A stretch of 16,694 nucleotides of DNA from Bacteroidales bacterium (GTDB lineage Bacteria; Bacteroidota; Bacteroidia; Bacteroidales; UBA932): contig JAFTYS010000014.1 in the NCBI GenBank assembly GCA_017461285.1, positions 1 to 16,694 of the forward strand, read 5' to 3'. Positions 806 through 16,694 of this stretch are shown in pieces. Numbering within the stretch: the first letter of the stretch is position 1; every line of letters begins with the position of its first letter. The notes under the pieces are model-generated. The model ran no database searches, was not told the origin of the DNA, and saw only the letters and a program-made list of their open reading frames with translations. The position numbers and the translations under genes are program-made.

Positions 806-819
806 CTTGTATAGAGATT

Positions 820-3722: not shown

Positions 3723-3734
3723 ATATTTTTAGTT

Positions 3735-3766
3735 GTCATTCTGAACGAAGTGAAGAATCTTTAGAG
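3735..3766 (+). repeat. Dispersed SERSEES-type intergenic repeat
   Basis: The stretch begins GTCATTCTGAACGAAGTGAA and goes on through GAATCTTTAGAG. Translated in frame it gives CHSERSEESLE, the well-known spurious peptide produced by an intergenic repeat found in many bacterial genomes, Bacteroidota included. It lies in the divergent region between the secreted-protein operon and the GSCFA gene, and its left edge reaches the -33 region of the minus-strand promoter. Identification is from memory of the repeat. Confidence 0.7.
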
Positions 3767-3831
3767 ATTTTTGGTGACCGGCGACGCTACTTTATTGTAA
3801 TACACTGGTGCTTAACACGTTAATGAAACAC

Positions 3832-3873
3832 GCTGTCGCCAGTCCCCCTAAAAACAGGGGGACTGGCGACAGC
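3832..3873. repeat. REP-like palindrome, 18-bp perfect arms, 6-nt loop
   Basis: The arms GCTGTCGCCAGTCCCCCT (3832-3849) and 3856-3873 are perfectly complementary around the loop AAAAAC. The outer CTGTCG/CGACAG bases and the 6-nt loop match the palindromes around the RAYT gene at 11.6-13.0 kb, while the inner stem differs (CCAGTCCCCCT against TCTGAGTGCAA). It sits between two divergent genes, where no terminator is needed, and no T-run follows. That favours a REP element over a terminator. Confidence 0.75.
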
Positions 3874-3953
3874 AGCAATTAGATAACATATTAATATTCA
3901 GGTTATTAACTTAATGTTTCTGTCGTCGGTCAAAACAAGGAAACATTCAAGAG

Positions 3954-3984
3954 TTGGTTTGGTGGAGGAATTTATGTAAGTTTG
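3954..3984 (+). promoter_or_regulatory. Promoter of the GSCFA gene, probably leaderless
   Basis: TTG (3954-3956), a 20-nt gap and TAAGTTTG (3977-3984) fit the Bacteroidota sigma consensus. The ATG at 3989 begins only four bases after the box, where transcription would be expected to start. The mRNA may therefore be leaderless or nearly so. Confidence 0.7.
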
Positions 3985-3988
3985 CAGT

Positions 3989-4876
3989 ATGTTGAAACTA
4001 CAGACACCGGTGACCGACCTGGAGTGTAAGGTCGGGATTTCATATAAGGACAGGATAATGATGCTGGGAAGCTGCTTCTCGGACAGCATCGGCCGTCAGC
4101 TTGCAGACTTCGGATTCGACGTCTGCGTGAACCCGTTCGGAACCCTGTACAACCCCGTTTCCATACTGCAGAGCATAGAAATGCTGGCAGGAAGCCGCAT
4201 GTTCGGACCGGAAGACTGCGTACAGATAGGCGCCGGTGACGGACGCTGGTGTTCGTTCTCCCATCACACTTCGTTCGCCAGGGCGTCCGAGGAAGAATTC
4301 CTCGCGGACGCCAACGAAGCCCTCGCAGCAGCGAGGGAACGCTTCGTTTCCTGCAACAAGATCATCATTACTCTGGGAACGGCATGGTGTTTCAGGAATG
4401 TCGCTTCAGGCGCCGTGGTTTCAAACTGTCTGAAAAGACCTGCTGCAGAATTCGTCAGGGAAAGGCTCTCGTCAGCGGAAGTGACTGAAACGCTTCGCAG
4501 GATAGCCGAGCTCTGCCCCGGCAAGCAGTTCATCTTCACAGTCAGCCCGATACGCCACTTCAAGGACGGCGCCCACGGCAATCAGATCAGCAAATCCGCC
4601 CTGCTTCTGGGCATCGATGACTTCCTCTGCGGCTGTCCTGTCGACCTCAGCATGGACCCTTTCTACCCAGCCGACTACTTCCATGCCTACGAAATCATGA
4701 TGGACGAGCTTCGTGACTACCGCTTCTATGCGGAAGACATGTGCCACCCTTCACAGCAGGCCGTGGACTATATCCGCGAACGTTTCCTCGACTGGGCCCT
4801 CCCCTCTTCCGAGCGTCAGGCCCTCGAAGAAAACATCCGCCGCTTCAGACATTCCCAGCACCGTTCATCCCACTGA
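3989..4876 (+). CDS. GSCFA-domain protein, SGNH-hydrolase-like
   Basis: The 295-aa protein carries the motif that names the family as GSCFS at residues 27-31 (MMLGSCFSDSIGRQL), followed by NPFGTLYNP. Further typical blocks are IITLGTAWCF, FTVSPIRHFKDG and, near the end, DMCHPSQQAVDYI. The GSC serine and the D-x-x-H pattern in DMCHPS resemble the catalytic layout of GDSL/SGNH esterases, so a carbohydrate- or lipid-ester hydrolase role is plausible. The family's function is not well established. No signal peptide is visible, so the protein is probably cytoplasmic. It is a single gene with its own promoter, and the start at 3989 is fixed by the promoter box just before it. Confidence 0.9.
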   Translation: MLKLQTPVTDLECKVGISYKDRIMMLGSCFSDSIGRQLADFGFDVCVNPFGTLYNPVSILQSIEMLAGSRMFGPEDCVQIGAGDGRWCSFSHHTSFARASEEEFLADANEALAAARERFVSCNKIIITLGTAWCFRNVASGAVVSNCLKRPAAEFVRERLSSAEVTETLRRIAELCPGKQFIFTVSPIRHFKDGAHGNQISKSALLLGIDDFLCGCPVDLSMDPFYPADYFHAYEIMMDELRDYRFYAEDMCHPSQQAVDYIRERFLDWALPSSERQALEENIRRFRHSQHRSSH

Positions 4877-4966
4877 CCCAGTTCCCCTTTAGCGGCACGC
4901 ATTCTTTATAAATAGCGACATATCAAACGATTACGCTTTTCTTATAAAAAATAATCAATAAAAGTA

Positions 4967-4996
4967 TTGCAGATTAAAAAATCATTGCTACCTTTG
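4967..4996 (+). promoter_or_regulatory. Promoter of the ABC/GntR operon
   Basis: TTG (4967-4969), a 19-nt AT-rich gap and TACCTTTG (4989-4996) match the Bacteroidota consensus. Transcription should start around 5000-5003, inside the adjacent palindrome, leaving a leader of about 60 nt before the ATG at 5065. Confidence 0.75.
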
Positions 4997-4997
4997 C

Positions 4998-5021
4998 GGT
5001 GTACTAGTTTACTAACACACC
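4998..5021. promoter_or_regulatory. 24-bp palindromic operator, probable GntR (YtrA-type) site
   Basis: The half-sites GGTGT (4998-5002) and TAGT (5005-5008) are mirrored by ACTA (5011-5014) and ACACC (5017-5021). That makes 18 of 24 bases palindromic, with 2-bp unpaired steps. The site begins one base after the -7 box and covers the expected transcription start, a classic repressor position. The operon's last gene encodes a GntR protein of the YtrA type, whose known operators are also GTGTACTA-like palindromes. Assignment to that regulator is an inference. Confidence 0.75.
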
Positions 5022-5064
5022 AAAGCAAACACAACACAAATAGACACTTTAAAGGTATAAAGCA

Positions 5065-5892
5065 ATGATCACAATCAAAGACCTAGGGTTCTCATACGGC
5101 GAAAAAGCCGTCCTGAAGAACATCACGATGAATCTGGAAGAAGGCAGGATCTATGGCCTTCTCGGAGAAAACGGAGTCGGAAAGACGACTCTCCTCACCC
5201 TGCTCTGCGGCCTGAAGAAGCCTCAGACAGGAACGATCGGCACAGACGGAAGGAATCCGTACGACCGCGAACCGTCCCTGCTCAGCGAGCAGTACTACCT
5301 CAGCGACGAAGTTCCCCCTATGAACATGAAGGCTGTGGATTATGCGAAGAACTACGGCAAGTTCTGGGAAGGATTCGACATGGACAAGTTCATCGAAGTC
5401 ATGGGAGTATTCGAGAATGACCCACAGCAGAAGATGACCCACATGTCATTCGGCCAGCTCAAGAAGACCTACATCTCCTTCGCGCTAGCATGCAACCCAA
5501 AGTATCTTTTCATGGACGAACCGACCAACGGCCTCGACATCCCTTCAAAGGCCCAGTTCCGCAAGGCTGTGACGAAGTACACCCGCGAAGACTCGGTGAT
5601 CCTCATCTCGACCCACCAGGTTCGCGACCTCGAGAACATAATCGACCCGATCATCATCCTCGACCGCCAGGACGTTCTCCTGAACGCAACGCTGGAGGAG
5701 ATTTCCGAGAAGCTTTACTTCGACTACTCTTCTGAAAGGATAGAGGACGCACTCTACAGCGAGATGATCCCTGGCGGAAACATCCAGGTCTGCCTCAACC
5801 AGAGCGGAGAAGACAGCAAGGTCAACATCGAGGCACTCTTCAACACCGTGCACCAGCACAAGGAACTTATAAAAGGAATCTTTAACAAATAG
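5065..5892 (+). CDS. ABC transporter ATP-binding protein
   Basis: The 275-aa ATPase has Walker A GENGVGKTT (34-42), a Q-loop near Q76, an altered signature MSFGQ (127-131, in place of LSGGQ), Walker B YLFMDEPTNGLD (147-158) and the H-loop His184 (STHQ). The first 200 residues form the ATPase core. The last 75 form an extension typical of ATPases paired with ABC-2-like membrane proteins. It is the first gene of a three-gene operon; the next start is 5 nt downstream. Similar ytrA/ytrB-type loci in Firmicutes respond to cell-envelope stress, but the substrate of this one is unknown. The operon is probably repressed by its own GntR protein through the palindrome at 4998-5021. Confidence 0.93.
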   Translation: MITIKDLGFSYGEKAVLKNITMNLEEGRIYGLLGENGVGKTTLLTLLCGLKKPQTGTIGTDGRNPYDREPSLLSEQYYLSDEVPPMNMKAVDYAKNYGKFWEGFDMDKFIEVMGVFENDPQQKMTHMSFGQLKKTYISFALACNPKYLFMDEPTNGLDIPSKAQFRKAVTKYTREDSVILISTHQVRDLENIIDPIIILDRQDVLLNATLEEISEKLYFDYSSERIEDALYSEMIPGGNIQVCLNQSGEDSKVNIEALFNTVHQHKELIKGIFNK

Positions 5893-5897
5893 CAATC

Positions 5898-6782
5898 ATG
5901 AAAAACGACATATTCAACTTCCGCAGATTCGGAAAATACTTCACGACAGACATCAGGACCTGCTGGGCGAACTTCGGCCTCAGCCTGCTGACCATATCAC
6001 TCCTCTTCCCTACCGTCCTATACATTGTGACGACGGCTTTCAACCTCATCCTCAGATCAAGCTGGGACGGACCGGACATGGGAATCAGGGTGTTCGTATT
6101 CGCCGTGGCCATGTTCTGCCTTGTAGTCACAATGCCGGTGAAATGCTACGGACGCATCACTGAAAAGCAGTACGGATCCTTCTGGCTGACCCTCCCCGCT
6201 TCCAGACTGGAGAAGTTCGTCAGCATGTTCATAATGACATGCATCATCGTTCCGATAACCGGAACAGTCCTCTATCTCGGAGCTGACGCCCTTATCTGCA
6301 CCCTCGACCACACATGCGGCAGAAACCTCGTCGCAGGAGGAATGGAGCTGCTCAGGCACATGTCAGACCTGCAGGAATTCACGATGAACCTTGGCGAAGA
6401 GTCGCTGACAGTCGAGAACGCCACTGTGGCTCAGGAACTCGTGAGACAGATAAACTCCCCATGGCTTTACGTGGACGATTTCTTTGGAATCACACTTCCG
6501 TTCCTGCTCGGAGCAGTCTTCTTCAAGAACGGAAAGACCGTGAAGACCTTCCTTGCAATCTTCGCATTCAGCATGGCGACAAGCATTATCATGTCCCCAT
6601 TCTTGGCGGACTGGGCATCGGAAATCGTAACCAACGCAAACAATGACCCTCAGACTGTCATCAGCATGTTCAGCCATGGAATATTCAAGCATCTTGCGCT
6701 CATAGACACGATTACCGACACTATTGTAAACCTCGCCCTTCTTGTGGGAATATGGTTCAGGATCAAGACCTTAAAGCACTAG
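5898..6782 (+). CDS. ABC transporter membrane protein, about six TM segments
   Basis: The 294-aa hydrophobic protein shows membrane segments near residues 20-48, 58-77, 107-132, 192-212, 218-240 and 262-290. A longer polar stretch (about 135-190) between the third and fourth segments could be an extracytoplasmic loop. Layout and size resemble ABC-2-type permeases of YtrA-regulated loci, although no named motif was recognised. It follows the ATPase after 5 nt and precedes the GntR gene by 4 nt, so the three are surely co-transcribed and ATPase and permease very likely form one exporter or membrane-stress complex. Coupling residues cannot be identified by eye. Confidence 0.85.
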   Translation: MKNDIFNFRRFGKYFTTDIRTCWANFGLSLLTISLLFPTVLYIVTTAFNLILRSSWDGPDMGIRVFVFAVAMFCLVVTMPVKCYGRITEKQYGSFWLTLPASRLEKFVSMFIMTCIIVPITGTVLYLGADALICTLDHTCGRNLVAGGMELLRHMSDLQEFTMNLGEESLTVENATVAQELVRQINSPWLYVDDFFGITLPFLLGAVFFKNGKTVKTFLAIFAFSMATSIIMSPFLADWASEIVTNANNDPQTVISMFSHGIFKHLALIDTITDTIVNLALLVGIWFRIKTLKH

Positions 6783-6786
6783 GATC

Positions 6787-7125
6787 ATGGAATTCAACAG
6801 CAACAAATCAATATATCTTCAGATCTGCGACGCGATATGCGAGCAGATCCTGAGCGGGACGCTGGGGCCGGACGAGCGCATACCTTCGGTGCGCGAGTAC
6901 GGCGCGGAGATCGGTGTGAATCCCAACACGATCATGCGTTCATACGAGAAGCTGACAGCTGACGGAATCATCTACAACAAACGCGGAATCGGATACTTCA
7001 TCAGCCCGGATGCAAGGGAGACCGTGCTCGAAGCCCAGAGGAAGGAATTCATGGAAGAAGAACTGCCTCAGATCCTGCGCCGCATGAAACTTCTAGGCAT
7101 CGACCCGTCAGTGCTTGTAGGTTAA
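6787..7125 (+). CDS. GntR-family transcriptional regulator, YtrA type
   Basis: The 112-aa protein has the GntR winged helix-turn-helix at residues 10-75: IYLQICDAICEQIL, then RIPSVREYGAEIGVNPNTIM and the wing IIYNKRGIGYFI. The short C-terminal tail (about 35 residues, ending in ILRRMKLLGIDPSVL) is a two-helix dimerisation segment, as in the YtrA subfamily, rather than a ligand-binding domain. YtrA regulators usually control an ABC transporter encoded with them. Here the gene is the last of the operon and a 24-bp palindrome overlaps the operon's transcription start, so negative autoregulation is likely. The inducer is unknown. Confidence 0.93.
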   Translation: MEFNSNKSIYLQICDAICEQILSGTLGPDERIPSVREYGAEIGVNPNTIMRSYEKLTADGIIYNKRGIGYFISPDARETVLEAQRKEFMEEELPQILRRMKLLGIDPSVLVG

Positions 7126-7144
7126 AAGAAAATTAGTACATTTG
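7115..7144 (+). promoter_or_regulatory. Promoter of the small lipoprotein gene
   Basis: TTG (7115-7117), a 19-nt gap and TACATTTG (7137-7144) match the Bacteroidota consensus with the same spacing as the ABC operon promoter. The -33 triplet lies within the end of the GntR gene. The leader to the ATG at 7182 would be about 30 nt. Confidence 0.7.
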
Positions 7145-7181
7145 CAGGTACTGAAACCTGAGCCGGCTAAAGAACCGGAAA

Positions 7182-7631
7182 ATGACTACTAAACTTCTTA
7201 AAATACTGGCAGTTACAATATTTGCTACCATGTCGCTGTCCTGCAGCATGGCCCTTCTGAGCGATGAAGAAGCCGCATTGAACGGAGAATTCACGATAAC
7301 CGTAAACGGAGTCGTATCCAATGTCGTGACCAACGCACCTCTGGAAGGGATGAAGGTGACATTCGAAGCATTCGACGACAATTCCCTTTCGGTAATGCCC
7401 CTCATATCTTTGACTGACGTAACCGACAGCAAGGGAGTATATACGATCAAAGCCAAAGGATTCTCCGATCCTGTGACATGCATAATAACGGCAGAAAGCA
7501 CGGAAGAGACCGGTCTGTACGAGACCATGACGAATAAGGTGGTCGTGACATGGAGCGGAAACTCCTTCGACCCCGAGAGCAAGACATTCTTTGTGAACGA
7601 CTGCAACTTCCAGATGAAAAGGGCTGATTAA
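7182..7631 (+). CDS. Small putative lipoprotein with an Ig-like/regulatory beta domain
   Basis: The 149-aa product has a lipoprotein signal with lipobox SLSC at Cys21. The mature part (from about residue 33) reads as one beta-sandwich: FTITVNGVVSNVVTNAPLEGMKV, then DSKGVYTIKA and ITAES. The pattern of V-N-G-x-V, A-P-L-x-G-M-x-V and G-x-Y-T resembles carboxypeptidase-regulatory-like (transthyretin-fold) domains common in Bacteroidota surface proteins. No enzymatic motif is visible. It has its own promoter and converges on the AraC regulator gene, the two stop codons sharing TTAA (7628-7631). Its role is unknown. Confidence 0.8.
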   Translation: MTTKLLKILAVTIFATMSLSCSMALLSDEEAALNGEFTITVNGVVSNVVTNAPLEGMKVTFEAFDDNSLSVMPLISLTDVTDSKGVYTIKAKGFSDPVTCIITAESTEETGLYETMTNKVVVTWSGNSFDPESKTFFVNDCNFQMKRAD

Positions 7632-8818
7632 GACGGCTTTCCGTCAGACTCCCTCCATTCCTTCGGAGAGCAGCCGACTATCTTTACGAACTGCCTGTGG
7701 AAATTTGACTTATCGCTGAAGCCCGAAGCTTCGGCGATAATGTTTATAGAAGCATCCTTGTTCTCAAGGAGCAGGGCCTTCGCCTCTTCGATCCTCAGGC
7801 CCGTCCTCCATGTCCTGAAGTCCACGCCCATCCTGGTGGCGAAGTAAAGATGGAGAAGATCCTTGGTCGTATGAAGTTCGCGTGCGATTTCGTCACGGGT
7901 CCTGTCATATTCGCGGAACTTCTTGTCCTTCACCCACCTGTCCAGCGTCCTCTCCAGTCTTGCGAACTCAGCTTCCGTATATTCCGGAAGAGGCATGTCG
8001 TCAGCTTCGTTCTTCTTGCCGCGCTTGCGGGCTCTGCGCTTGCGGTTCTCGTCTATGCGGCGCATCAGGTCCTGGCCCGAAAGAGCCTTGTAGGCGAACG
8101 CATCAAGCATCAGCTTGTGGCTTCCGATGAACGAGATGAAGTTGGCGGCGAAATACAGCATGAAAAGAGAATACCATAGAATCCATATCTTCATGAAACC
8201 GCGAGGCAGGCAAAGATATACCAGGATGAAGACCTGTGTGAGCATCATTATGGTATAACAGAAGTGCACCCATTTCAGCCTCTGGTCCTCTTCCTCGTCA
8301 TAATACTGCTGCACCTGCTTCACGCACTTTCTGTACAGCTTGTCGAATACAAGTATATGGGAAGTGCATTGGATGACGAACAGCACCACGCTGGATATCA
8401 TCACCGTAGTCTTCAGCCAGCCCGGCTCCCACCAGAACGACTTGACCAGCACGAAGCTCACCACCGCCACAAAGCCGACATTGAGGAAGAACTTGTCTAT
8501 GTCCACATAGCCGTCTTCCAGCACATTGATCAGTGAATATGAGAGAATGGCCGAAGAAATGGCCGTGATCACAAACATCATGATAGCCACGAATCTTTCA
8601 TAATCCGGGATTCCTGAATGCCGCAGGCACGAAATCATCAGCAGCGTGCAGATGAAGAAACAGATCGCTATGGTATTCTTTGCCCTGGAGATCTTCCTCG
8701 AGTAGTCCGTGTTAGGGACCTTGATAAGCATCAGAAGGGCTCCCAGGATAAAGGAAGTCACGATGCCTATCGCGAGGGTCAGCTCTATGTTGAAGATCAG
8801 ACTAGTGAAGTTTGACAT
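7628..8818 (-). CDS. Membrane-anchored AraC-type transcriptional regulator
   Basis: The 396-aa protein has two halves. Residues 8-232 contain about seven membrane segments (near 8-32, 47-65, 75-98, 110-128, 135-156, 184-203 and 209-232). Residues 255-269 are a basic cytoplasmic linker (RKRRARKRGKK). Residues 308-390 form the AraC double helix-turn-helix, including GLRIEEAKALLLENKDASIN, IAEASGFSDKSNFHRQF and the family-ending GCSPKEWR. Such proteins, found widely in Bacteroidota, are thought to sense a membrane or external signal and bind DNA while tethered. The target is unknown; the convergent lipoprotein gene and the divergent lysA are the obvious neighbours to test. The start at 8818 is favoured because it leaves a complete first membrane helix. 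Confidence 0.9.
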   Translation of the reverse strand: MSNFTSLIFNIELTLAIGIVTSFILGALLMLIKVPNTDYSRKISRAKNTIAICFFICTLLMISCLRHSGIPDYERFVAIMMFVITAISSAILSYSLINVLEDGYVDIDKFFLNVGFVAVVSFVLVKSFWWEPGWLKTTVMISSVVLFVIQCTSHILVFDKLYRKCVKQVQQYYDEEEDQRLKWVHFCYTIMMLTQVFILVYLCLPRGFMKIWILWYSLFMLYFAANFISFIGSHKLMLDAFAYKALSGQDLMRRIDENRKRRARKRGKKNEADDMPLPEYTEAEFARLERTLDRWVKDKKFREYDRTRDEIARELHTTKDLLHLYFATRMGVDFRTWRTGLRIEEAKALLLENKDASINIIAEASGFSDKSNFHRQFVKIVGCSPKEWRESDGKPS

Positions 8819-8877
8819 GCCGGGCCAAGAATTATTCGTTTTACTATATGCAACTGCGAAAATACGGATTTTTTCGC

Positions 8878-8885
8878 TATTTTTG
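8878..8885 (+). promoter_or_regulatory. Candidate -7 box for lysA
   Basis: TATTTTTG fits TAnnTTTG and lies about 60 nt before the chosen lysA start. No TTG is present at the usual distance, so the call is tentative. A minus-strand near-match (TATTTTCG, 8857-8864, with TTG at 8886-8888) could be the divergent promoter of the AraC gene. Confidence 0.45.
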
Positions 8886-8946
8886 CAATCGTTTTTTGCC
8901 GTATTTCCGAAAAACAGGCAAAACAGACAACTTTTTGACGATTAAC

Positions 8947-10152
8947 ATGTTAGATTTCAACACCATAGAGAAGCTTGACGGCCTGGCTACACCGTTCTAT
9001 TACTACGACATGGACCTCTTCCGCAAGACGGTCGACCATGTCGCGGAACTGGCTGCAAGCCATGACATAAAGGTCCATTATGCCGTGAAGGCAAATGTGG
9101 AGCGCCGTCTTCTCGAATACATCAGCTCAAAGGGCTTCGGAGCTGACTGCGTCAGCGGAAACGAAGTCCTGCATGCCCATGACTGCGGATTCCCTGCGGA
9201 AAAGATCGTTTACGCAGGCGTAGGAAAGAGCGACAAGGAGATATACAACGCCCTGATGCTCGGCATCGAGGCCTTCAACTGCGAATCCCTCCAGGAGATA
9301 TACGTCATCAACGAGATGGCCCACCGATACGGCCGCAAGGCCAATGTATCGGTGCGCATAAACCCGGACATAGATGCGCATACCCATAAGTACGTGACCA
9401 CCGGACTCTACGAAAACAAGTTCGGCATCTCCCAGCATGAGTTCGAAAAGCTCATCGAGATCATCGGAAAGAGCGAGCACATAAACTTCATCGGCCTCCA
9501 TTTTCACATCGGTTCGCAGATCACGCGCGTCGACGAGGTCTTCGCCCTCGAATGCAGGAGGGTCAATGAGATAGTGGCTTATTTCGAAAGGAACGGACTG
9601 AAGATCAACAACATAAACCTCGGAGGAGGACTCGGAGTGGACTACGATGATCCCGACGGCTCCCCTATCGCGGACTTCGGGACATGGTTCAGGACGATTT
9701 CGGAGAACATCGTCCGCCGACCGGACCAGAAGGTCCATGTCGAGCCCGGACGCTCCCTCGTGGCACAGTGCGCGACACTCATATCGCGCGTGCTCTTCGT
9801 CAAGAGCGGCGAGACCAAGAACTTCCTGATCATGGACGCAGGTATGAACGACCTGATCCGTCCGGCCCTCTACGGAGCCTACCACAAGATCGAGAACCTG
9901 TCGGCCGAGATGAGGACATTCTTCCCGACCCACCAGGCCTACGACATAGTCGGTCCGGTCTGCGAATCCAGCGACGTCTGGGGAGCAGGCCGCCTGCTGC
10001 CGCTGAGCGTGCGCGGCGACCTGATGGCCATCCGCAGCACCGGAGCCTACGGCCAGGTGATGGCCAGCCGCTACAACATGAAGGACCTTGCCCCTTCAGT
10101 CTTCAGCGACCGTCTTGACGAAGCGCCGAAGATGACCGATTACTTCATGTAA
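8947..10152 (+). CDS. lysA: Diaminopimelate decarboxylase
   Basis: This enzyme makes L-lysine from meso-diaminopimelate, the last step of lysine synthesis, using pyridoxal phosphate. The 401-aa form shows the PLP lysine K48 (HYAVKAN), HFHIGSQ (185-191), the phosphate-binding GGGLG (226-230), EPGR (266-269) and the active-site cysteine in GPVCESSD (C339). The frame is open upstream to an ATG at 8812, but those 45 extra residues are unlike the family, would overlap the divergent AraC gene, and include the likely promoter; MLDFNTIEKLDGLATPFYYYD is the normal family start. ffh follows after 41 nt and may share the transcript. Confidence 0.95.
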   Translation: MLDFNTIEKLDGLATPFYYYDMDLFRKTVDHVAELAASHDIKVHYAVKANVERRLLEYISSKGFGADCVSGNEVLHAHDCGFPAEKIVYAGVGKSDKEIYNALMLGIEAFNCESLQEIYVINEMAHRYGRKANVSVRINPDIDAHTHKYVTTGLYENKFGISQHEFEKLIEIIGKSEHINFIGLHFHIGSQITRVDEVFALECRRVNEIVAYFERNGLKINNINLGGGLGVDYDDPDGSPIADFGTWFRTISENIVRRPDQKVHVEPGRSLVAQCATLISRVLFVKSGETKNFLIMDAGMNDLIRPALYGAYHKIENLSAEMRTFFPTHQAYDIVGPVCESSDVWGAGRLLPLSVRGDLMAIRSTGAYGQVMASRYNMKDLAPSVFSDRLDEAPKMTDYFM

Positions 10153-10193
10153 TCGCCGAGGGATCCTTAACAGAGAAATGAAAATAGATAAAT

Positions 10194-11537
10194 ATGTTTG
10201 AGAATTTAAGTGAAAGACTAGAGAGATCGTTCAAGATCCTCAAAGGAGAAGGAAAGATTACCGAGATCAACATCTCGGAAGCGATGAAGGACATCCGCCG
10301 CGCCCTTCTGGACGCCGACGTGAGCTACAAGATCGCAAAGCAGTTCTGCGACGACGTTAAGAAGAAGGCCATAGGACAGAACGTGCTGACAGCCGTCAAG
10401 CCGCAGCAGATGATCGTGAAGATCGTCCATGACGAGCTCGCAGCCCTGATGGGAAGCGAATCTTCCGACATCAACGTGAAGGGTTCGCCAGCAGTAGTGC
10501 TCGTAGCCGGTCTCAACGGTTCCGGTAAGACTACGTTCTCCGGCAAGCTCGCCCTCAACATCAAGAGCAAGAGAGGCATGAAGGTCATGCTCGCTGCCTG
10601 CGACTATTTCCGTCCTGCAGCCATCGACCAGCTGAAGGTCCTCGGAGAGCAGATCGGAGTTCCCGTCTATTCAGAGGAAGGCGTAAAGGATCCTATCAGG
10701 ATAGCCAAGGGAGCCATCGCACAGGCGAAGGCTGAAGGCTGCTCTGTAGTGATCGTCGATACTGCCGGACGTCTGGCAGTGGACCAGGAGCTCATGGACG
10801 AGATCTCAGCCCTGAAGGATGCCCTCAACCCTACCGAGACACTCTTCGTAGTAGACGCCATGACCGGTCAGGACGCCGTAGAGACAGCCAAGGCATTCAA
10901 CGACAGGCTTGACTTCGACGGAGTTGTCCTCACCAAGATGGACGGTGACACCCGCGGCGGTGCGGCGCTCTCCATCAAGGCAGTGGTAGGAAAGCCTATC
11001 AAGTTCGTCAGCACAGGCGAGAAGATGGAAGCCCTCGACGTCTTCCACCCTGCCCGCATCGCTGACCGAATCCTCGGCATGGGAGACGTCGTTTCCCTCG
11101 TGGAGAAGGCCCAGGAGCAGTTCGACGAGGCACAGGCCCGTGAGCTCAAGAAGAAGCTCGCTAAGGACCAGTTCACCCTCTGGGACTTCTACCAGCAGAT
11201 CCAGCAGATCAAGAAGATGGGTAACATCAAGGATCTTGCTTCGATGATCCCAGGCATGGGCAAGGCCCTCAAGGACGTCGACATGGACAACGACTCGTTC
11301 AAGGGCATAGAGGCTATCATCCTTTCAATGACTCCATACGAGCGCGAACATCCTGAATGCCTCAACGGCAGCAGGCGCAAGAGGATCGCTGACGGTTCGG
11401 GTACATCCCTTCCTGAGGTGAACAAGCTCCTCAAGCAGTTCGAAGGCACCCGCAAGATGATGAAGACCGTAATGGGAGCCAACATGAGCAACATGATGCG
11501 CCCAGGCGGCTTCCACGGCGGCAAGAAGCGCAAATAA
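10194..11537 (+). CDS. ffh: Signal recognition particle protein Ffh (SRP54)
   Basis: Ffh binds 4.5S RNA and signal sequences of nascent membrane proteins and, with FtsY, delivers ribosomes to the membrane. The 447-aa protein has the N domain (1-95, starting MFENLSERLERSFKILKG); the GTPase G domain with GLNGSGKTT (106-114), DTAGRL (189-194), TKMD (247-250) and the adjoining DTRGG; and a methionine-rich M domain (about 300-432) with MIPGMGKAL and the RNA-binding block around NGSRRKRIADGSG. Length and domains are complete and standard. It is a housekeeping gene immediately upstream of the REP/RAYT region. There is no T-rich terminator of its own; the palindromes at 11560-11685 may serve. Confidence 0.97.
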   Translation: MFENLSERLERSFKILKGEGKITEINISEAMKDIRRALLDADVSYKIAKQFCDDVKKKAIGQNVLTAVKPQQMIVKIVHDELAALMGSESSDINVKGSPAVVLVAGLNGSGKTTFSGKLALNIKSKRGMKVMLAACDYFRPAAIDQLKVLGEQIGVPVYSEEGVKDPIRIAKGAIAQAKAEGCSVVIVDTAGRLAVDQELMDEISALKDALNPTETLFVVDAMTGQDAVETAKAFNDRLDFDGVVLTKMDGDTRGGAALSIKAVVGKPIKFVSTGEKMEALDVFHPARIADRILGMGDVVSLVEKAQEQFDEAQARELKKKLAKDQFTLWDFYQQIQQIKKMGNIKDLASMIPGMGKALKDVDMDNDSFKGIEAIILSMTPYEREHPECLNGSRRKRIADGSGTSLPEVNKLLKQFEGTRKMMKTVMGANMSNMMRPGGFHGGKKRK

Positions 11538-11559
11538 CGTTGCTTCTGTTGGTGAATTT

Positions 11560-11597
11560 TGTCGGCTGAGTGCATAAAGCGTTGCACTCTACCAACA
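11560..11597. repeat. Degenerate REP palindrome (REP-a)
   Basis: The arms TGTCGGCTGAGTGC (11560-11573) and 11584-11597 flank a 10-nt loop. The inner GAGTGC/GCACTC pairs perfectly, and the outer part has three mismatches on the plus strand. On the minus strand (the RAYT coding strand) two of these become G-T pairs, leaving one mismatch. A perfect 7-bp alternative partner, TGTTGGT, lies at 11547-11553 for ACCAACA (11591-11597), which is also repeated at 11604-11610. It reads as an older or altered copy of the units below. Confidence 0.65.
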
Positions 11598-11643
11598 AGA
11601 TAAACCAACAAAAACATTAACTATCAAGCCGTTATGAAAAATC

Positions 11644-11685
11644 ACTGTCGGCTGAGTGCAAGAGAATTTGCACTCAGACGACAGT
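11644..11685. repeat. REP palindrome at the RAYT 3' side (REP-b)
   Basis: The arms ACTGTCGGCTGAGTGCAA (11644-11661) and 11668-11685 are complementary at 17 of 18 positions around the loop GAGAAT. The inner arm sequence and loop are identical to REP-d on the other side of the RAYT gene, apart from one base in the left arm. It lies 15 bp beyond the RAYT stop and may also end ffh or RAYT transcription, since T-rich tracts follow on both strands. Confidence 0.85.
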
Positions 11686-11700
11686 CTTTTAGTGAAGTTC

Positions 11701-12558
11701 CTACTTATTGAGGATATTAACGATGTCTTTCAAAGGGCAATTGAGCACTCTGGCCAGCTGCTTGGGAGGACAATTGAACTGGCGTCTGATATCAGTGACC
11801 AGCTTCACACGTATCTCCCAAGACAATTCCTCAAGAGATACCGACTCATACCTTTTCTCAAGCAGTTCGTGCACCCCGGCAAGAACAAGCGTGTCAGAAA
11901 ACACAAGCGGACCGTCTTTTTCAGAGGCAGTCTTATTGGAGGTACTGAGAAAATACTCCAGCGATCTGGCCCGACCGAACAAACGCTCAACAAAACCTAC
12001 ATTAACATATGATGACGGATCAATATACCCTGAATCATTGACCAGATATGCCCCATCAAGCTTTACTTCAGATTTCAGCAAAGCAATCTGCTCCCTGACA
12101 CCAAAATCAGACAAAGGACGTTTGTTGTGGATCTTGTCAAAATTGGAAAAATAGCAGCACCCGCTCCCCCACTCATAATTCTGAGGCATGCAATTGATGC
12201 CCGCCTTCACCGGGTTATTCAGCACATATGCAATAAGACGCTTCAGGCTTTCATTGGACATATCGATTTCCGAGCATGATGTCTTGACTGACCTTAGAAG
12301 CTTCACTGTTCCGTATCTGTTCCTCACATACCTTGAAACAAGGCGCTTGTAATGGTCAATGAAATGTTCACACTCTTCCTTAGCGCCATAAATTATGAAG
12401 TGAAAATGGTTGGACATGAGGACAAAGGCAAGCAAGTCCAGGTCCAATCCATGTAGTGATACCGGAACATAGTTCATCCCGGCGACATAATCTGCACGTT
12501 CTCTGAATATGACATCCTGATCAAGACCTTTCGTATAGACATGATAAAACCTTTTCAT
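11701..12558 (-). CDS. REP-associated tyrosine transposase (RAYT), Y1/HUH family
   Basis: The 285-aa protein belongs to the IS200-like Y1 single-strand nucleases. It has the HUH pair in LMSNHFHFII (H51, H53) and the block AYVLNNPVKAG (residues 110-120), whose Tyr111 matches the catalytic tyrosine position of RAYTs. The C-terminal tail (about 245-285, ending PPKQLARVLNCPLKDIVNIL) looks like a DnaA-type helix-turn-helix, as in some RAYT groups. Known family role: cutting and rejoining REP palindromes as single-stranded DNA, thought to spread REPs. Two REP-type palindromes lie on each side, and the gene is lower in GC than ffh. All key residues are present, so it appears functional. Unlike an insertion sequence it has no IS ends visible. 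Confidence 0.9.
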   Translation of the reverse strand: MKRFYHVYTKGLDQDVIFRERADYVAGMNYVPVSLHGLDLDLLAFVLMSNHFHFIIYGAKEECEHFIDHYKRLVSRYVRNRYGTVKLLRSVKTSCSEIDMSNESLKRLIAYVLNNPVKAGINCMPQNYEWGSGCCYFSNFDKIHNKRPLSDFGVREQIALLKSEVKLDGAYLVNDSGYIDPSSYVNVGFVERLFGRARSLEYFLSTSNKTASEKDGPLVFSDTLVLAGVHELLEKRYESVSLEELSWEIRVKLVTDIRRQFNCPPKQLARVLNCPLKDIVNILNK

Positions 12559-12596
12559 AAAATTCCCATCTATTTACTCTGACAAAGTTCAGGAAG

Positions 12597-12629
12597 AATA
12601 TCCGTATACCGAAAATGTATGCGGATATT
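12597..12629. repeat. 13-bp hairpin in the RAYT upstream region
   Basis: AATATCCGTATAC (12597-12609) pairs with 12617-12629 around a 7-nt loop with a single T-G wobble. It lies about 40 bp upstream of the RAYT start and would be in the 5' leader or promoter of that gene. Its sequence is unrelated to the REPs. It may be a regulatory hairpin; a terminator for plus-strand transcription (TTTTCT follows) is an alternative. Confidence 0.55.
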
Positions 12630-12868
12630 TTCTCAAATCGCCCTTACAGAGGGATGCAAAGGGATTTTTCGCACGAAAATTTGTTCAATTTTTATAAAAA
12701 ATCTGACAAATTCCACCAGATAAAGTTCGTTGAAGATTCTGAATGAGCAGGATAAAACTCATGGGGGGGGCTATGATTTGCCAATATAAGTACTGGCTTG
12801 ACTGCAGAGGTGATCCTCCTCACTAGAGGCCTCTCAATACGTCCCAAAAGATTTTCGGGGACGGCCGA

Positions 12869-12910
12869 TCTGTCGGTTGAGTGCAGGAATCTCTGCACTC
12901 AACCGACAGA
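12869..12910. repeat. Perfect REP palindrome (REP-c)
   Basis: The arms TCTGTCGGTTGAGTGCAG (12869-12886) and 12893-12910 are perfectly complementary over 18 bp around the loop GAATCT. It shares CTGTCGG and TTGAGTGCA with the other units and has matched changes on both arms (GTT/AAC where REP-d has TCT/AGA), as expected if pairing is under selection or copying restores symmetry. Confidence 0.85.
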
Positions 12911-12955
12911 CAAAGCTCGCAAAACACTAGTGTTCAATACATTACGCCAAAACTG

Positions 12956-12995
12956 CTGTCGTCTGAGTGCAAGAGAATTTGCACTCAGACGACAG
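12956..12995. repeat. Perfect REP palindrome (REP-d)
   Basis: The arms CTGTCGTCTGAGTGCAA (12956-12972) and 12979-12995 are perfectly complementary over 17 bp around the loop GAGAAT, the same loop as REP-b. The flanks AAAACTG and CAGTTTT would lengthen the stem if the CTG repeated at 12953-12958 were looped out. It lies 36 bp beyond the recombinase stop and 45 bp from REP-c, so c and d form a close pair. Confidence 0.85.
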
Positions 12996-13031
12996 TTTTA
13001 TTGATTTCTTTATAAATTGATAACGGAATAA

Positions 13032-13955
13032 TCAGCGAAGCGAGCGGAACATCTGTTCCACGCAACGCTGCTTCTGCTCCATGTCGGGATGGACATAGAG
13101 ATTGAGGGTAGTGCTGATGTTCGAATGACCCAACAGCGCGCTGACGGTCTTGTAGTCGCAGCGGCTTTCAATGCAACGTGTGGCGAAACTGTGGCGCAGG
13201 CTGTGGAATTTAAGTTTCGGCATCTGGAGACGCTGCATCAGTCTGTTGTAGTAATTCCTGTACGTACGGGGCTCGAGAGGATGGTCAGTATTGGTCAGAA
13301 CATAATTATCGCCGTCCAGATACTTGTAACGTGTCCTGAGCATTGCCTTCAGATCCTTGGCAATCGGAATTATGCGCATCGAGCTCATAGTCTTGGCGCT
13401 GCCGATTATCACCTCGGTCCGGCAATCGGTTCCGTTCTTTATGTATATGCGCTGAATCGTCTTGGATATCCTGATCACACCAGCATGCAGGTCTATGTCT
13501 TCCCACCGCAGGGCACATATCTCCCCTATCCTGAGTCCGCAGCACAGGCAGATGTATATTCCCAGATTCATATAGCTGAAATTCTCTGTCAGATACTTCA
13601 TGATCTTCTGCTGGCTGGTTCTGCTCAGTACCTCCACCTCCTTTCTCTCCCTCTCTGTAGGGAACTTCACGTCAATCACCCGGTAATCCATATACCCCTT
13701 CTTGGAACCGTACCGCAGCACCATCCTCATGACCACCAGCATGTCTTTTACAGACTTCTGGCTAAGGCCATAGTCAAGCTTAGTGAGTACAAAATCCTGT
13801 ACCATAGATTCCGTGACATCGTGTTCCTGTCCGAACGCCGGAACAAGGTGGTTAGCCAGCAGCAAGGCATAAGCGGCATACGTAGAGCGTTTCACATAAT
13901 GCCTCTTCTCCTCCTGCCACATCCGGGCTACTTCTTCAAAAGTCTTCTTTTCCAT
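13032..13955 (-). CDS. Tyrosine recombinase / site-specific integrase
   Basis: The 307-aa enzyme has a SAM-like core-binding N-terminal domain (about 5-95) and a catalytic domain (about 110-300) with the complete catalytic set: R142 (CGLRIGEI), K188 (GSAKTMSSMR), H251-x-x-R254 (HSLRHSFA), H277 (LLGHSN) and the nucleophile Y287 (LNLYVHP). It lacks the extra arm-binding domain of larger integrases, so it resembles short Xer-like or invertase-type recombinases of Bacteroidota. No phage, conjugation or cargo genes are next to it. Just upstream are an imperfect palindrome over the start codon (13954-13985) and a 113-bp nested palindrome (14001-14113), candidate control or recombination sites. Target and role are unknown. 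Confidence 0.92.
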   Translation of the reverse strand: MEKKTFEEVARMWQEEKRHYVKRSTYAAYALLLANHLVPAFGQEHDVTESMVQDFVLTKLDYGLSQKSVKDMLVVMRMVLRYGSKKGYMDYRVIDVKFPTERERKEVEVLSRTSQQKIMKYLTENFSYMNLGIYICLCCGLRIGEICALRWEDIDLHAGVIRISKTIQRIYIKNGTDCRTEVIIGSAKTMSSMRIIPIAKDLKAMLRTRYKYLDGDNYVLTNTDHPLEPRTYRNYYNRLMQRLQMPKLKFHSLRHSFATRCIESRCDYKTVSALLGHSNISTTLNLYVHPDMEQKQRCVEQMFRSLR

Positions 13956-13985
13956 AATAGTGTAAATTTTGGTTTACCCTATTAT
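13954..13985. promoter_or_regulatory. Palindrome at the recombinase start codon, possible operator
   Basis: ATAATAGTGTAAA (13954-13966) and 13973-13985 are complementary at 12 of 13 positions around a 6-nt spacer. The element begins at the start codon and extends into the leader or promoter of the recombinase gene, so autoregulation or translational control is plausible. Neither is shown by the sequence alone. Confidence 0.55.
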
Positions 13986-14000
13986 ACGATAATTCAGATA

Positions 14001-14113
14001 GCCACGACGCGCAAAACTGCACACAATAATGCTCGTCGTGGCAGAAAATCGCCGAAAGCCGTCCTTTTTCTGCCACGACGAGCATTTTCGATGGTATTTC
14101 TGCGTTTCGTGGC
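14001..14113. repeat. 113-bp nested palindrome upstream of the recombinase
   Basis: The inner arms 14028-14048 and 14066-14086 are perfect 21-bp inverted repeats (core GCTCGTCGTGGCAG) with a 17-nt spacer. The outer arms, 14001-14027 and 14087-14113, are degenerate inverted repeats beginning GCCACGA, with the same centre at 14057. The short motif GCCACGA(CG) thus occurs four times in alternating orientation (14001, 14034, 14072, 14107). It fills the gap between the PAS and recombinase genes, both on the minus strand. It may be a recombinase site, a REP doublet of another family, or a transcription end. Confidence 0.75.
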
Positions 14114-14121
14114 ACAATATG

Positions 14122-14460
14122 CTAGCCGCGGACGTAGTGGGGCATGTCGGACGGGATGACCATGGAGATTTCCACGAGGCCGGCTACGGCACCGTCAACC
14201 TTCCAGGCGGTCTGGTAGATCATTTTGCGGAGACCGTTCTTCTCTATGGTATACGCATTGGAGCCGCCGGTCTCCAGAAGGGAGCGGATGATCTCCTTTG
14301 AGCGCTCGTTGTGGCAGCCCATGAGGTTCTTCCCGACAAGGTCGCCATGCGAGGCGAATGTCTCCTTCGCCTTGTCGTTCATATACAGGATCACTCCCTC
14401 CGCATCGCAGACAGTGACCGCACAATTCATTTCCTTAGCCCAATCCGGTATCATATCCAT
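14122..14460 (-). CDS. Single-domain PAS protein
   Basis: The 112-aa protein is one PAS fold and nothing else: MDMIPDWAKEMNCAVTVCD begins the first strands, GVILYMNDKAKETF is the classic PAS core with the N-D-x-A motif, GKNLMGCH follows, and VDGAVAGLVEIS is the final strand. It has no kinase, cyclase or DNA-binding output, so it must act on a partner or bind a small ligand. Similar stand-alone PAS proteins of this length are common in Bacteroidales. It is the last gene of the manC string, 10 nt after the 65-aa gene. Cytoplasmic by lack of signal or membrane segments. The ligand cannot be inferred. Confidence 0.85.
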   Translation of the reverse strand: MDMIPDWAKEMNCAVTVCDAEGVILYMNDKAKETFASHGDLVGKNLMGCHNERSKEIIRSLLETGGSNAYTIEKNGLRKMIYQTAWKVDGAVAGLVEISMVIPSDMPHYVRG

Positions 14461-14470
14461 TCAGATAAAT

Positions 14471-14668
14471 TCATTGATCATCTTTGCATGAGATGGGGGT
14501 CCCGCAGGCGGATGCTTCGGAAGGAGCCTTCGAAGCGGAAGCCTCCGCTTCCAGTTTCTTGCGGTAGGCGTCCATGCGCTTTTTCCAGGCGACCTGTCGC
14601 TGGCGCGCCTCCTTGGCCTTGCGGGCCTGGAGGTCTTCCATCTTCTTCTCTAAATAATTGTCTGCCAT
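14471..14668 (-). CDS. Small charged protein, probable coiled coil
   Basis: The 65-aa product is rich in K, R and E, with a helical, coiled-coil-like stretch at residues 3-45 (NYLEKKMEDLQARKAKEARQ and on), then an Ala/Ser-rich tail with two cysteines. The beginning MADNYLEKKMED is a recurring start for small Bacteroidales proteins, as far as I recall, but I know no function. The start codon directly follows the stop of the LEA14-like gene with no gap, and the PAS gene begins 10 nt later, so it is translated as part of the operon. Confidence 0.7.
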   Translation of the reverse strand: MADNYLEKKMEDLQARKAKEARQRQVAWKKRMDAYRKKLEAEASASKAPSEASACGTPISCKDDQ

Positions 14669-15133
14669 TTATATAAGTTTCAGCAAGGTAGTGACAGGCA
14701 TGCGGGATTTGGATACGACGCGGGTCTCGCCGGTGTCGAGAGTTATGCGTACGGACAGGTCGACCGAGTAGTCTTCCGGGTCGAATGCAATGAGAGCCAG
14801 CACGTCCCATAGCGACGCGCTCGGGCTCAACGCCGCGTGCCCGCTTATATTCGCGCGGGCGGTGCCCAGCGGTATGTACACATCCGATGCAGTGCCATGA
14901 ACGAAAGGCACGCCCTTCTTATAGACGGTTCCCTTGATCTCCGAGATCGTGAACCCGACCATCGGATTGGTCACATCGAGCCACACGGCGCCACGCACCG
15001 CACGAAGGCTCTCCGGCCTGATCGAAGACACACCATACTTCCCGAAGGAAAGCTTGCTGAACTGCGCATGGCAGACCTCGGACGAAGCGAATGCCAGCAC
15101 GCATACCATTAGAATTGCGAATAATCTTTTCAT
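14669..15133 (-). CDS. Secreted LEA14-like (WHy-type) protein
   Basis: The 154-aa product has a signal peptide (MKRLFAILMVCVLAFASSEVCHA, cleavage near 23-24). The mature part resembles the LEA type 2/WHy fold: LRAVRGAVWLDVTNPMVGFTISEIKGTVYKKGVPFVHG, then VYIPLGTARANISGHA and a long strand SVDLSVRITLDTGETRVV. The V-x-N-P and G-x-V-Y-K-x-G pattern is characteristic. Such small secreted Bacteroidota proteins have no assigned function. The gene lies 1 nt after manC and 0 nt before the 65-aa gene, hence clearly in an operon. A different immunoglobulin-like beta fold is the alternative. Confidence 0.75.
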   Translation of the reverse strand: MKRLFAILMVCVLAFASSEVCHAQFSKLSFGKYGVSSIRPESLRAVRGAVWLDVTNPMVGFTISEIKGTVYKKGVPFVHGTASDVYIPLGTARANISGHAALSPSASLWDVLALIAFDPEDYSVDLSVRITLDTGETRVVSKSRMPVTTLLKLI

Positions 15134-15134
15134 G

Positions 15135-16172
15135 TTATTTTGTAAAATCCTTTATCCTCTGTTCCTCGCTGAGGCGGCAGACCAGAATACGGCCGCCACG
15201 CTCGACCACGATGCTGTCCTCCATGCCCTCGAGCACTACGCTCGAAGCATTCGGAGCATGCACGATGCATCCCTTGCAGTCATACAGATGCACATTCTCC
15301 CCGACCACGGCATTGCCGTTCTCGTCATGCGGCAGAAGAGTCCACAGCGAGCCCCATGTACCGACATCGCTCCATCCGAAGTCGCCCGGAATCGTGTAGA
15401 TGTAGTCCGCCTTCTCCATGACCGCATAGTCGATCGAAATCTTCTCGCATGTAGGGAAGATGTCCTCGACCGTCTCCGCCTCGAATCGGGTATAGAAAGC
15501 CTCCGCCATCCGGTCCATCTTCGCAGCCAGATCAGGCACGAACCGGCGCATCGAATCCACGATTGTCGACACATTCCATACGAATATGCCCGCATTCCAG
15601 AGATAATTTCCGGCTGCGAGATACTCTTTCGCTACATCAAGGGACGGCTTTTCCTTGAATGCCGACACCGGCAGGATTGGAGATTCAGAAGCGGCGCACT
15701 GGATATAGCCATAACCGGTCTCAGGACGCGTAGGAGTGATGCCGATCGTCACGATCCTCTCCCCTGCCGAGGTAAAGTCCAGGGCGGTCCTTATCACCCT
15801 GCGGAACTCATCACCGTCAAGCACGAGGGCATCAGAAGGGGTCACCACGATGTTCGCTGCCGGATGCTTCGCCTTTATCTTCCAGCAGGCATAAGCGATA
15901 CATGGAGCCGTATTGCGTGCGCACGGCTCCGCCAGAATGTTCTCCGCAGGAATCTCCGGCAGCTGCTCGCGCACGATCGGCACATATGCCGCGCTGGTCA
16001 CCACCCAGAAATTCGACATCGGACACACAGGAGCAAACCTCTCCACTGTCATCTGTATCATAGTCTTTCCAGTACCCAGCACATCCACGAACTGCTTCGG
16101 GAACTCCGGAGTACTCATAGGCCAGAAACGGCTACCGATTCCGCCTGCCATTATCACTACATGATTTTCCAT
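15135..16172 (-). CDS. manC: Mannose-1-phosphate guanylyltransferase
   Basis: The enzyme makes GDP-mannose from mannose-1-phosphate and GTP, supplying mannose and fucose to capsule, O-antigen and glycoproteins. The 345-aa protein shows the nucleotide-binding signature AGGIGSRFWPMS (9-20), FPKQF (24-28), the metal-site TPSDALV (111-117), TGYGYI (152-157), EKPS (174-177) and NYLWNAGIF (189-197). It ends near residue 345 without the C-terminal mannose-6-phosphate isomerase (cupin) domain of bifunctional ManC proteins, so it is the single-function form. It lies 18 nt downstream of the toxin gene and 1 nt upstream of the LEA14-like gene. No promoter was found in the 18-nt gap, so it may be read from the toxin-antitoxin promoter or from one inside parE. 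Confidence 0.95.
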   Translation of the reverse strand: MENHVVIMAGGIGSRFWPMSTPEFPKQFVDVLGTGKTMIQMTVERFAPVCPMSNFWVVTSAAYVPIVREQLPEIPAENILAEPCARNTAPCIAYACWKIKAKHPAANIVVTPSDALVLDGDEFRRVIRTALDFTSAGERIVTIGITPTRPETGYGYIQCAASESPILPVSAFKEKPSLDVAKEYLAAGNYLWNAGIFVWNVSTIVDSMRRFVPDLAAKMDRMAEAFYTRFEAETVEDIFPTCEKISIDYAVMEKADYIYTIPGDFGWSDVGTWGSLWTLLPHDENGNAVVGENVHLYDCKGCIVHAPNASSVVLEGMEDSIVVERGGRILVCRLSEEQRIKDFTK

Positions 16173-16190
16173 AATATAATCACATTTTTA

Positions 16191-16499
16191 TTAAAGGTGC
16201 CGGTCAAAATCCATTATTTCATGAAGAATACGACTGATCAGAACAACACCCGTAGTCTGTATCTGATAAAAAATCACATGTCGGCCAATCGGATATTTGC
16301 GATATCCCATCCGCACATGGTCATATGAATGACCTGAAACATCCGGAAACAACGCTATTTCTGAAAATGCATCAAGTATTCCTTGAACATACCTGTCAGC
16401 CTGCTGGCGAGACCACTTCTTTACCGTATATAGCCAGATCTCCGTAAGATCTTTCTTCGCGCGATCAGATATTTTGTACTTCTGCTTCATAGCGTGCAT
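16191..16499 (-). CDS. ParE/RelE-family toxin
   Basis: The 102-aa protein has the ParE pattern: YKISDRAKKDLTEIWLYTVKKW at the start, ADRYVQGILDAF, then GYRKYPIGRHVIFYQIQTTGVVLISRILHE. ParE toxins poison DNA gyrase, while RelE relatives cut mRNA on the ribosome; the K/R and aromatic pattern here fits ParE better. The start may be the ATG at 16499 or the one three codons on (16490, giving MKQKYKIS). Both lie inside the end of the antitoxin gene, as is usual for coupled toxin-antitoxin pairs. It appears intact. Confidence 0.9.
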   Translation of the reverse strand: MHAMKQKYKISDRAKKDLTEIWLYTVKKWSRQQADRYVQGILDAFSEIALFPDVSGHSYDHVRMGYRKYPIGRHVIFYQIQTTGVVLISRILHEIMDFDRHL

Positions 16500-16694
16500 G
16501 TAATTCTTTAAGGAATTGATCCGGATCGAAATCCTCGACTATTCCACTTTCCTCCCCTTCTATCAACGCCGCCCGAATTGCAGCAAGCCTGGTTTCCTCA
16601 TCTTCCATAAGACGAAGAGCGGCACGAATAACCTCACTGACATTATTGAAACGTCCTCCTGCAATATTTGCCTGAATGAACTCTTCATAATGAG
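16465..16694 (-). CDS. ParD-like antitoxin, 5' end cut by the window edge
   Basis: In minus-strand frame from base 16692 the last 75 codons read HYEEFIQANIAGGRFNNVSE, then VIRAALRLMEDEET, and end ARYEAEVQNI with TGA at 16465-16467. The F-I-Q-x-x-I-x-x-G-R-F-x-N-x-S-E-V-I-R-A-A-L-R-L pattern is that of the ribbon-helix-helix DNA-binding part of ParD/CC2985-type antitoxins. The acidic tail (EGEESGIVEDFDPDQF) is the toxin-wrapping segment. The N-terminal residues and promoter are outside the window. It overlaps the toxin gene by 26-35 nt and should repress their shared promoter. Confidence 0.85.
   Translation of the reverse strand, partial: HYEEFIQANIAGGRFNNVSEVIRAALRLMEDEETRLAAIRAALIEGEESGIVEDFDPDQFLKELHARYEAEVQNI

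Follow-up and report, generated by a model that had tools for sequence, protein, structure and literature searches.

Pseudomonas REPINs reportedly consist of two palindromic units and a spacer, which are dispersed as one unit and adjoin the gene of a REP-associated tyrosine transposase (RAYT; REP, repetitive extragenic palindrome). The choice of palindromes by RAYTs, and the response of a REP family to a change of its RAYT, have been tested on a few proteobacterial systems with GTAG-tagged REPs, and Escherichia coli TnpA-REP requires both the GTAG and a bulge in the stem, the sequence of the upper stem and the loop mattering little (PMC8266576). TnpA-Y1 subclass 2.6, mostly from Bacteroidetes, has atypical flanking structures without GT[AG]G, copies of which occur elsewhere in the genome, and Quentin et al. 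2018 did not find REP-like sequences beside subclass 2.1 genes (PMC6006769). Here we describe a Y1/HUH gene of RAYT type, with a pair of palindromes on each side, in contig JAFTYS010000014.1 of a gut Bacteroidales bacterium (UBA932; assembly GCA_017461285.1); the stretch analysed, positions 1 to 16,694 in nucleotides (nt), is called the window. The locus is likely to represent a divergent RAYT with a private REPIN-like element, consisting of two long palindromes at a fixed distance.

A sequence-only reading of this DNA had placed two palindromes on each side of the gene, and all four were recovered at exactly those places (Table 1, a to d), three of them with arms of 17-18 bp and 6-nt loops as described, apart from one mismatch in b. 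It had also noticed no GTAG-type tetranucleotide at the stem foot, and indeed the 10 nt immediately outside each foot of palindromes a to d contain neither GTAG nor GTGG on either strand, so that the GT[AG]G of canonical REPs is missing; a GGTAG lies inside the degenerate arm of palindrome a (minus strand, by reading). In the alignment register used, the palindrome starts are 86 nt apart in both pairs (a-b and c-d). Both sides of the RAYT have the same pair, as direct copies. The stem word TGTCGNNTGAGTGCA occurs eight times in the window with up to two mismatches (0.52 expected), always inside palindromes a to d. Perfect hairpins with arms of at least 14 nt and loops of 3-10 nt number three in the window (c, d and the palindrome of the distant copy), and none was found in 60 dinucleotide shuffles of it. 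Rfam, at its gathering thresholds, gave no match in the window. The 86-nt start spacing and the distant palindrome at 3832-3873 go beyond the earlier reading; the latter is an 18-bp perfect palindrome with the foot CTGTCG and an upper stem differing from that of palindromes a to d, and the stretch to which it belongs, at a distance of 8 kb from the RAYT, probably represents a pair that is old or variant.

Table 1. Features of the window (positions in nt; a dot in the strand column where no strand is assigned).
Feature	Position	Strand	Description
ffh (signal recognition particle protein)	10194..11537	+	adjoins the RAYT in 6/10 clade A loci
Palindrome a	11560..11597	.	degenerate; paired with b in the ffh-RAYT interval
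Palindrome b	11644..11685	.	18-position arms, 1 mismatch, 6-nt loop; starts 86 nt past the start of palindrome a in the register used
RAYT-type Y1/HUH gene	11701..12558	-	285 amino acids; NHFH at 50-53; Y111; C-terminal extension
Promoter-like leader part	12581..12629	-	dyad AATATCCGCATAC-loop-GTATACGGATATT, then GAACTTTG
Upstream leader part	12636..12714	-	GC hairpin with A/T tails and AT-rich inverted repeat
Palindrome c	12869..12910	.	perfect 18-bp arms, 6-nt loop
Spacer c-d	12911..12955	-	45 nt; CAGTTTTGGCGTAATG adjoining palindrome d (minus strand); motif common to relatives
Palindrome d	12956..12995	.	perfect 17-bp arms, 6-nt loop
Distant copy	3832..3931	.	3832-3873, perfect palindrome GCTGTCGCCAGTCCCCCT with a 6-nt loop; half-palindrome CTGTCGTCGGTC starting at 3920 after a 46-nt spacer (half by reading)

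The RAYT open reading frame (ORF) is intact, as had been proposed, with its tyrosine within YVLNNP, and the protein shares the TnpA-REP fold, a fold comparison having found PDB 4er8; searched by sequence, the PDB gave no match to the window protein alone and no relevant match to a profile. A scan of genome contigs yielded 441 related places; the 80 best of these, together with the window, make up the 81 loci and proteins analysed here; the titles of these best 80 are all Bacteroidales or Bacteroidia, many from ruminants. NH[FVL]H and Y-x-x-x-N stand at the expected place in 81/81 proteins (the N was required by the search pattern itself), and H51, H53 and Y111 are invariant in an alignment of 46 sequences. 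The full Y---NP signature is present in the window protein, and a proline follows the N in only 35 of the 81. A tryptophan about 21 residues before the tyrosine (W94 in E. coli) is missing from the window protein; 71 of the 81 proteins have none at 11-30 residues before the tyrosine, and the other ten have it at -30, -29, -16, -12 or -11. The C-terminal helix-turn-helix (HTH) models Bac_DnaA_C, HTH_23 and HTH_28 found no Pfam match in the window protein, and HTH_24, HTH_19 and Sigma70_r4_2 gave single weak matches (E<=0.05) among the 46 aligned members. NCBIfam NF047646 (REP_Tyr_transpos) is matched at E<=0.001 by 45 of these 46; the window protein reaches 36.3 bits, below the curated cut-off of 80. 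Since the window gene falls below both the Pfam and the NCBIfam cut-offs, such systems are easily overlooked.

Relatives of this RAYT are common in the genus of genome G001, the nearest relative that keeps it, and rare in a sample of the phylum, a contrast that is large even though the two surveys used differing queries and cut-offs: with E<=0.001 as the cut-off, matches to the window protein occur in 167 of 200 genomes of the genus, frequently five or more per genome, whereas a profile search of 395 genomes across the phylum at E<=1e-20 gave two matches, G001 included (this stricter cut-off is also passed by 144 of the 200 genus genomes, counted by hand). Viral contigs and phages contained no relative and a plasmid collection one partial match of 31% identity, so a phage or plasmid origin is without support. 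For the arm TGTCGNNTNAGTGCA, G001 has 17 matches, G005 five and G004 one, and 34 other genomes with RAYT relatives have none, the reversed-pattern control giving four matches in total across all 37 genomes, and the window hairpin pattern was found in three of 400 genomes of the genus, namely G001 and G005, the two nearest by ffh, and G255. The last probably represents one contig binned twice, because a G001 contig contains the whole of its 2115-nt piece; this 2.1-kb piece (L308 in G255, L083 in G001) is letter-for-letter common to two species genomes. In G001 the 17 arms lie at seven places, which on reading are five recognisable pairs, one pair with a degraded partner and one single palindrome. 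The pair is dispersed in the nearest relative keeping this RAYT and missing from nearly all other sampled congeners; it is neither confined to one locus nor equally common without this RAYT, the two outcomes that the sequence-only reading had named as speaking against it, and with a complete gene this upholds its proposal of a distinct RAYT group with REP-like palindromes of its own.

Two further stems behave similarly: that of L008 has 15 matches in its genome G008 and none in 36 others, and a GC-rich stem of G015 has 20 matches in G015 and 0-8 in 36 others, where the reversed control also gives 0-8, indicating enrichment rather than exclusivity. Dispersal of RAYT-flanking palindromes in the host genome was thus seen in the relatives G001 and G008, and the window-type gene and its palindromes together, genome-wide, only in G001. 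In contig C9 of G008 the pair of that genome is found twice, 558 nt apart, in an apparent tandem duplication (L175, L178).

The distance between the two palindromes follows the RAYT clade. The 162 flanks of the 81 loci (some of them cut short by a contig end) were scanned uniformly for two similar hairpins separated by 5-120 nt; 30 flanks had such a pair, compared with 0/162 shuffled flanks (the shuffle preserved base composition only). In clade A, to which the window belongs and which a branch with support 99/96 sets apart, the centres are 85-87 nt apart in all seven pairs; in clade B they are 51-52 nt apart in 21 of 22 pairs and 102 nt apart in one; the single pair of clade C has its centres 106 nt apart. 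A stricter uniform scan retained two flanks in clade A (both of the window, at 86), 17 in clade B (15 at 51-52, one each at 102 and 153) and one in clade C (at 53); a nested hairpin is present in six of the 12 clade C loci. The pair-distance labels on the tree come from preliminary scans with clade-specific distance limits, which by themselves might have produced a difference, and those of L007 and L008 come from reading. The stems themselves differ widely between RAYTs, some clade B relatives having similar ones. Stems, then, change between RAYTs, and in the pairs that were found the distance is constant for a RAYT clade, with the exceptions given. A repeat common to both flanks of one RAYT (score >=25) is present at 56 of 79 loci, versus 130 of 6321 mismatched pairings. 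A spacer motif recurs as well: TTT[TC]-N1-4-TA[AT] lies at most 8 nt from one palindrome in 12/12 clade A spacers (shuffled mean 0.85), these spacers being taken from loci and dispersed copies with different stems, and the motif having been picked post hoc, after they had been viewed; clade B spacers resemble TTTTnGGCCnTTTT by eye. The recognition rule of its own, which the sequence-only reading had suggested for this group, thereby finds only indirect support, in the missing GTAG, the missing tryptophan, the fixed pair distance and the post-hoc spacer motif.

Among the ten clade A loci, six have the RAYT beside ffh (the window, L001, L002, L003, L007 and L009), and four of these (L002, L003, L007 and L009) encode proteins with no more than 44-55% identity to the window RAYT; ffh adjacency despite this divergence looks like inheritance in place. 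The other four RAYTs stand beside an HRDC gene (L004-L006, whose HRDC genes are not necessarily one and the same) or beside ManC (L008; ManC was identified by reading, as ORF 15135-16172 of the window); L005 is away from the ffh site of its own genome, and the L008 RAYT and the ffh of G008 are on different contigs. In 30 ffh loci sampled from 366 genomes with a match, a RAYT adjoins ffh in four, three of them already among the ten clade A loci; ffh is followed by ManC in three and by an HRDC gene in three (the latter by reading). The palindromes at the ffh site differ: CTGTCGnnTGAGTGCA in the window, TGTGCCTAAAGGTCA in L007 and GTGTGTCCAACGCTGTC in L009. While the palindromes change completely, the RAYT gene in many cases either keeps its place or is lost.

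This conservation of place is relevant to an alternative in which the gene and its flanking pairs form an autonomous insertion sequence of IS200/IS605 type, with the pairs as its ends and isolated pairs as deletion derivatives. Direct copies of the pair flanking the gene, isolated pairs elsewhere and the clade A genes away from ffh would all suit such an element; however, the draft genome G001 has a single window-type gene, and there the near-identical copies that characterize IS200/IS605 elements were not found, and the repeated occurrence beside ffh, in four cases at low protein identity, argues against it. We regard an autonomous insertion sequence as unlikely. The palindromes might also be ordinary bidirectional terminators, or other structural repeats, which lie beside the RAYT by chance and are not spread by it. 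Long GC-rich hairpins can terminate transcription, and the pairs lie in intergenic DNA, here also between convergent genes. Terminators, however, would need no second hairpin at 86 or 51 nt, whereas the pair distance tracks the RAYT clade, the same pair stands on both sides of the RAYT, and the stems that were tested occur solely or preferentially in the genome that has their RAYT, which makes this explanation rather improbable. That the pairs are sites of another recombinase, e.g., of the tyrosine integrase encoded at 13032-13955, acting on folded hairpins like integron integrases, is very improbable: the integrase gene ends 36 nt from palindrome d and is beside the RAYT also in L001, but it adjoins the RAYT in only 1/80 related loci (some of them cut short by a contig end) and palindrome pairs occur without it, and it was rejected as mobiliser for the former reason.

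The places of the pairs differ between G001 and G005. Among the genomes found, G005 has the ffh closest to that of the window (96% identity over 415 nt, to the contig end), followed by G001 (92% over 638 nt). Contigs of G005 end on both sides of the place of the RAYT, one of them starting at window palindrome d and continuing into the same integrase, so this place is an assembly gap. Of five places in G001 that were compared with G005, one (on C9) is shared in part and four (C13, C36, C52 and C53) have no palindromes in G005, which agrees with copies of TGTCGNNTNAGTGCA in G005 being present only on contigs 28, 39 and 75. A base-exact empty site was not found between G001 and G005, the intergenic DNA being too diverged. 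Two of the four G005 sites (L242 and L243) contain another palindrome family, ACACCTGTGACAG (by reading), which also flanks the G005 RAYT L260, and different systems seem to use the same intergenic sites. Both genomes contain several RAYT-profile matches, eight in G001 and seven in G005 (two of these are pieces of one gene). Repeated hairpins flank three of the eight, with the three unrelated stems TGTCGGCTCAGTGCA, GTCGCTCAACGGTCGGA and AAAAGCACAAAAC, and three of the seven; the stem AAAAGCACAAAA flanks RAYTs in both genomes. The stem CGCTCAACGG, which flanks the G001 RAYT L251, recurs beside the window-type pair on contig C13 (left flank of L083), and a long inverted repeat around GCGAAGCAT/ATGCTTCGC adjoins several window-type palindromes in G001 and G005 (flanks of L098, L094 and L111; by reading).

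If a divergent RAYT does serve these pairs, it may bind them as folded single strands during replication, probably with one monomer per hairpin, and their distance would be set by the assembly of the protein; one monomer per hairpin, as proposed, would lead to a fixed spacing. The RAYT might read the stem foot and the spacer in place of a GTAG guide and cut in or beside the spacer through Y111, and the pair would thereby be copied or moved to new intergenic sites, the gene itself mostly staying beside ffh. A variable upper stem combined with a constant spacer and distance fits a protein that reads the lower stem and the spacing, given what is described for E. coli TnpA-REP in PMC8266576.

Several points weigh against a RAYT that mobilizes a private pair. 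Binding, cutting and movement are inferred, and mobility would depend on the comparison of G001 with G005, in which gain and loss at the four sites are indistinguishable (the comparison covers these two genomes alone, and three sites are anchored on one side only). Pairs were found in just 5/10 loci of clade A, 17/59 of clade B and 1/12 of clade C, and they are not all independent, because both flanks of one locus were counted and close relatives have similar stems. No repeat is common to both flanks in 23 of the 79 loci at the score threshold of 25, and the other RAYT matches of the two genomes (5/8 in G001, 4/7 in G005) have no repeated flanking hairpins at the setting used. Finally, the low copy number, with seven places in G001, means that active spread is not obvious.

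Should the RAYT and its pairs nevertheless form a partnership, a bolder proposal is conceivable, though we put it forward tentatively: the GTAG guide might have been replaced by geometry, i.e., two hairpins at a precise, clade-specific distance (about 86 or 51 nt) together with a conserved spacer and stem foot, so that the pair would act as a single-strand transposon reduced to its two ends, and several such systems with unrelated stems might operate side by side in a genome of about 2 Mb. The data suggest a large, mostly unannotated group of transposase-repeat partnerships. One genus here offers a large natural series, with numerous RAYTs whose stems differ (three of these stems were tested for confinement to the genome of their RAYT), a constant distance within the clade and no GTAG, and includes an ffh-side locus at which the stems are completely different between relatives. 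With this series it can be tested directly whether foot, spacer or distance is read, and how RAYTs and REPs co-evolve.

Standing apart from the RAYT and its palindromes, a leader of about 130 nt precedes the RAYT gene (12581-12714, minus strand), with three inverted repeats and a promoter-like end; the part at 12581-12629 may be a promoter, judging by the usual form of Bacteroidales promoters. Exact copies of the leader dyad occur at eight places in G001 and five in G005 and are absent from 14 other genomes, and a covariance model, for which 18 of 20 leaders were used, gave clear matches in 20 of 24 genomes and a single marginal one in each of the other four (some rows of its table are opposite-strand shadows). 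The genes following the 13 exact copies (L262-L274) include RAYTs, genes of toxin-antitoxin-like pairs (two Gp49/HTH_3 pairs, a HicB-type protein and DUF4160-DUF2442), a PD-(D/E)XK protein, HRDC proteins and lipoprotein-like ORFs (the last by eye). The leader may mark a common regulon or a gene-cassette promoter.

Compared with known systems, the window RAYT resembles E. coli TnpA-REP (group 2; 4er8) and its REPs and bacterial interspersed mosaic elements (BIMEs) in its fold, in the HUH motif with one tyrosine, and in flanking palindromes, which recur in the genome (for the window type, as seen in G001) and are often paired. The REPs of E. coli, however, need GTAG and a stem bulge (PMC8266576), whereas the stems of the window are long, often perfect and without GTAG at the foot, and the protein lacks the tryptophan, which is conserved before the tyrosine in the GTAG-reading subclasses 2.2, 2.4, 2.5 and 2.7. 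As in REPINs, in which two REP units with a conserved spacer are dispersed together, the pairs have a fixed distance and are dispersed in G001, although their units are not canonical REPs; unlike in the Pseudomonas REPINs, each half is a long palindrome without GTAG, the distance is locked by clade at 85-87 or 51-52 nt, and the copies are few. A search of the open-licence literature gave no description of paired GTAG-less RAYT palindromes at fixed distances in Bacteroidales, which is a weak negative. The nearest published descriptions are those of subclass 2.6 and of the TIRYTs. Longer Y1 proteins with a C-terminal extension and gene-specific, non-GTAG flanking repeats, sometimes double palindromes, are reported for TIRYTs/subclass 2.1 (PMC3733652, PMC6006769); the extensions of subclass 2.1 resemble HTH Pfam models, none of which the window protein matches, the comparison being one by description (PMC6006769). 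With subclass 2.6 the window shares a Bacteroidetes host and flanking structures that lack GT[AG]G and have genomic copies, and the two are set apart by consensus motifs only: 179 amino acids, NH[LIV]H, WQ and YIH[QN]NP in subclass 2.6 (also PMC6006769), compared with 285 amino acids, NHFH, no tryptophan and YVLNNP in the window protein.
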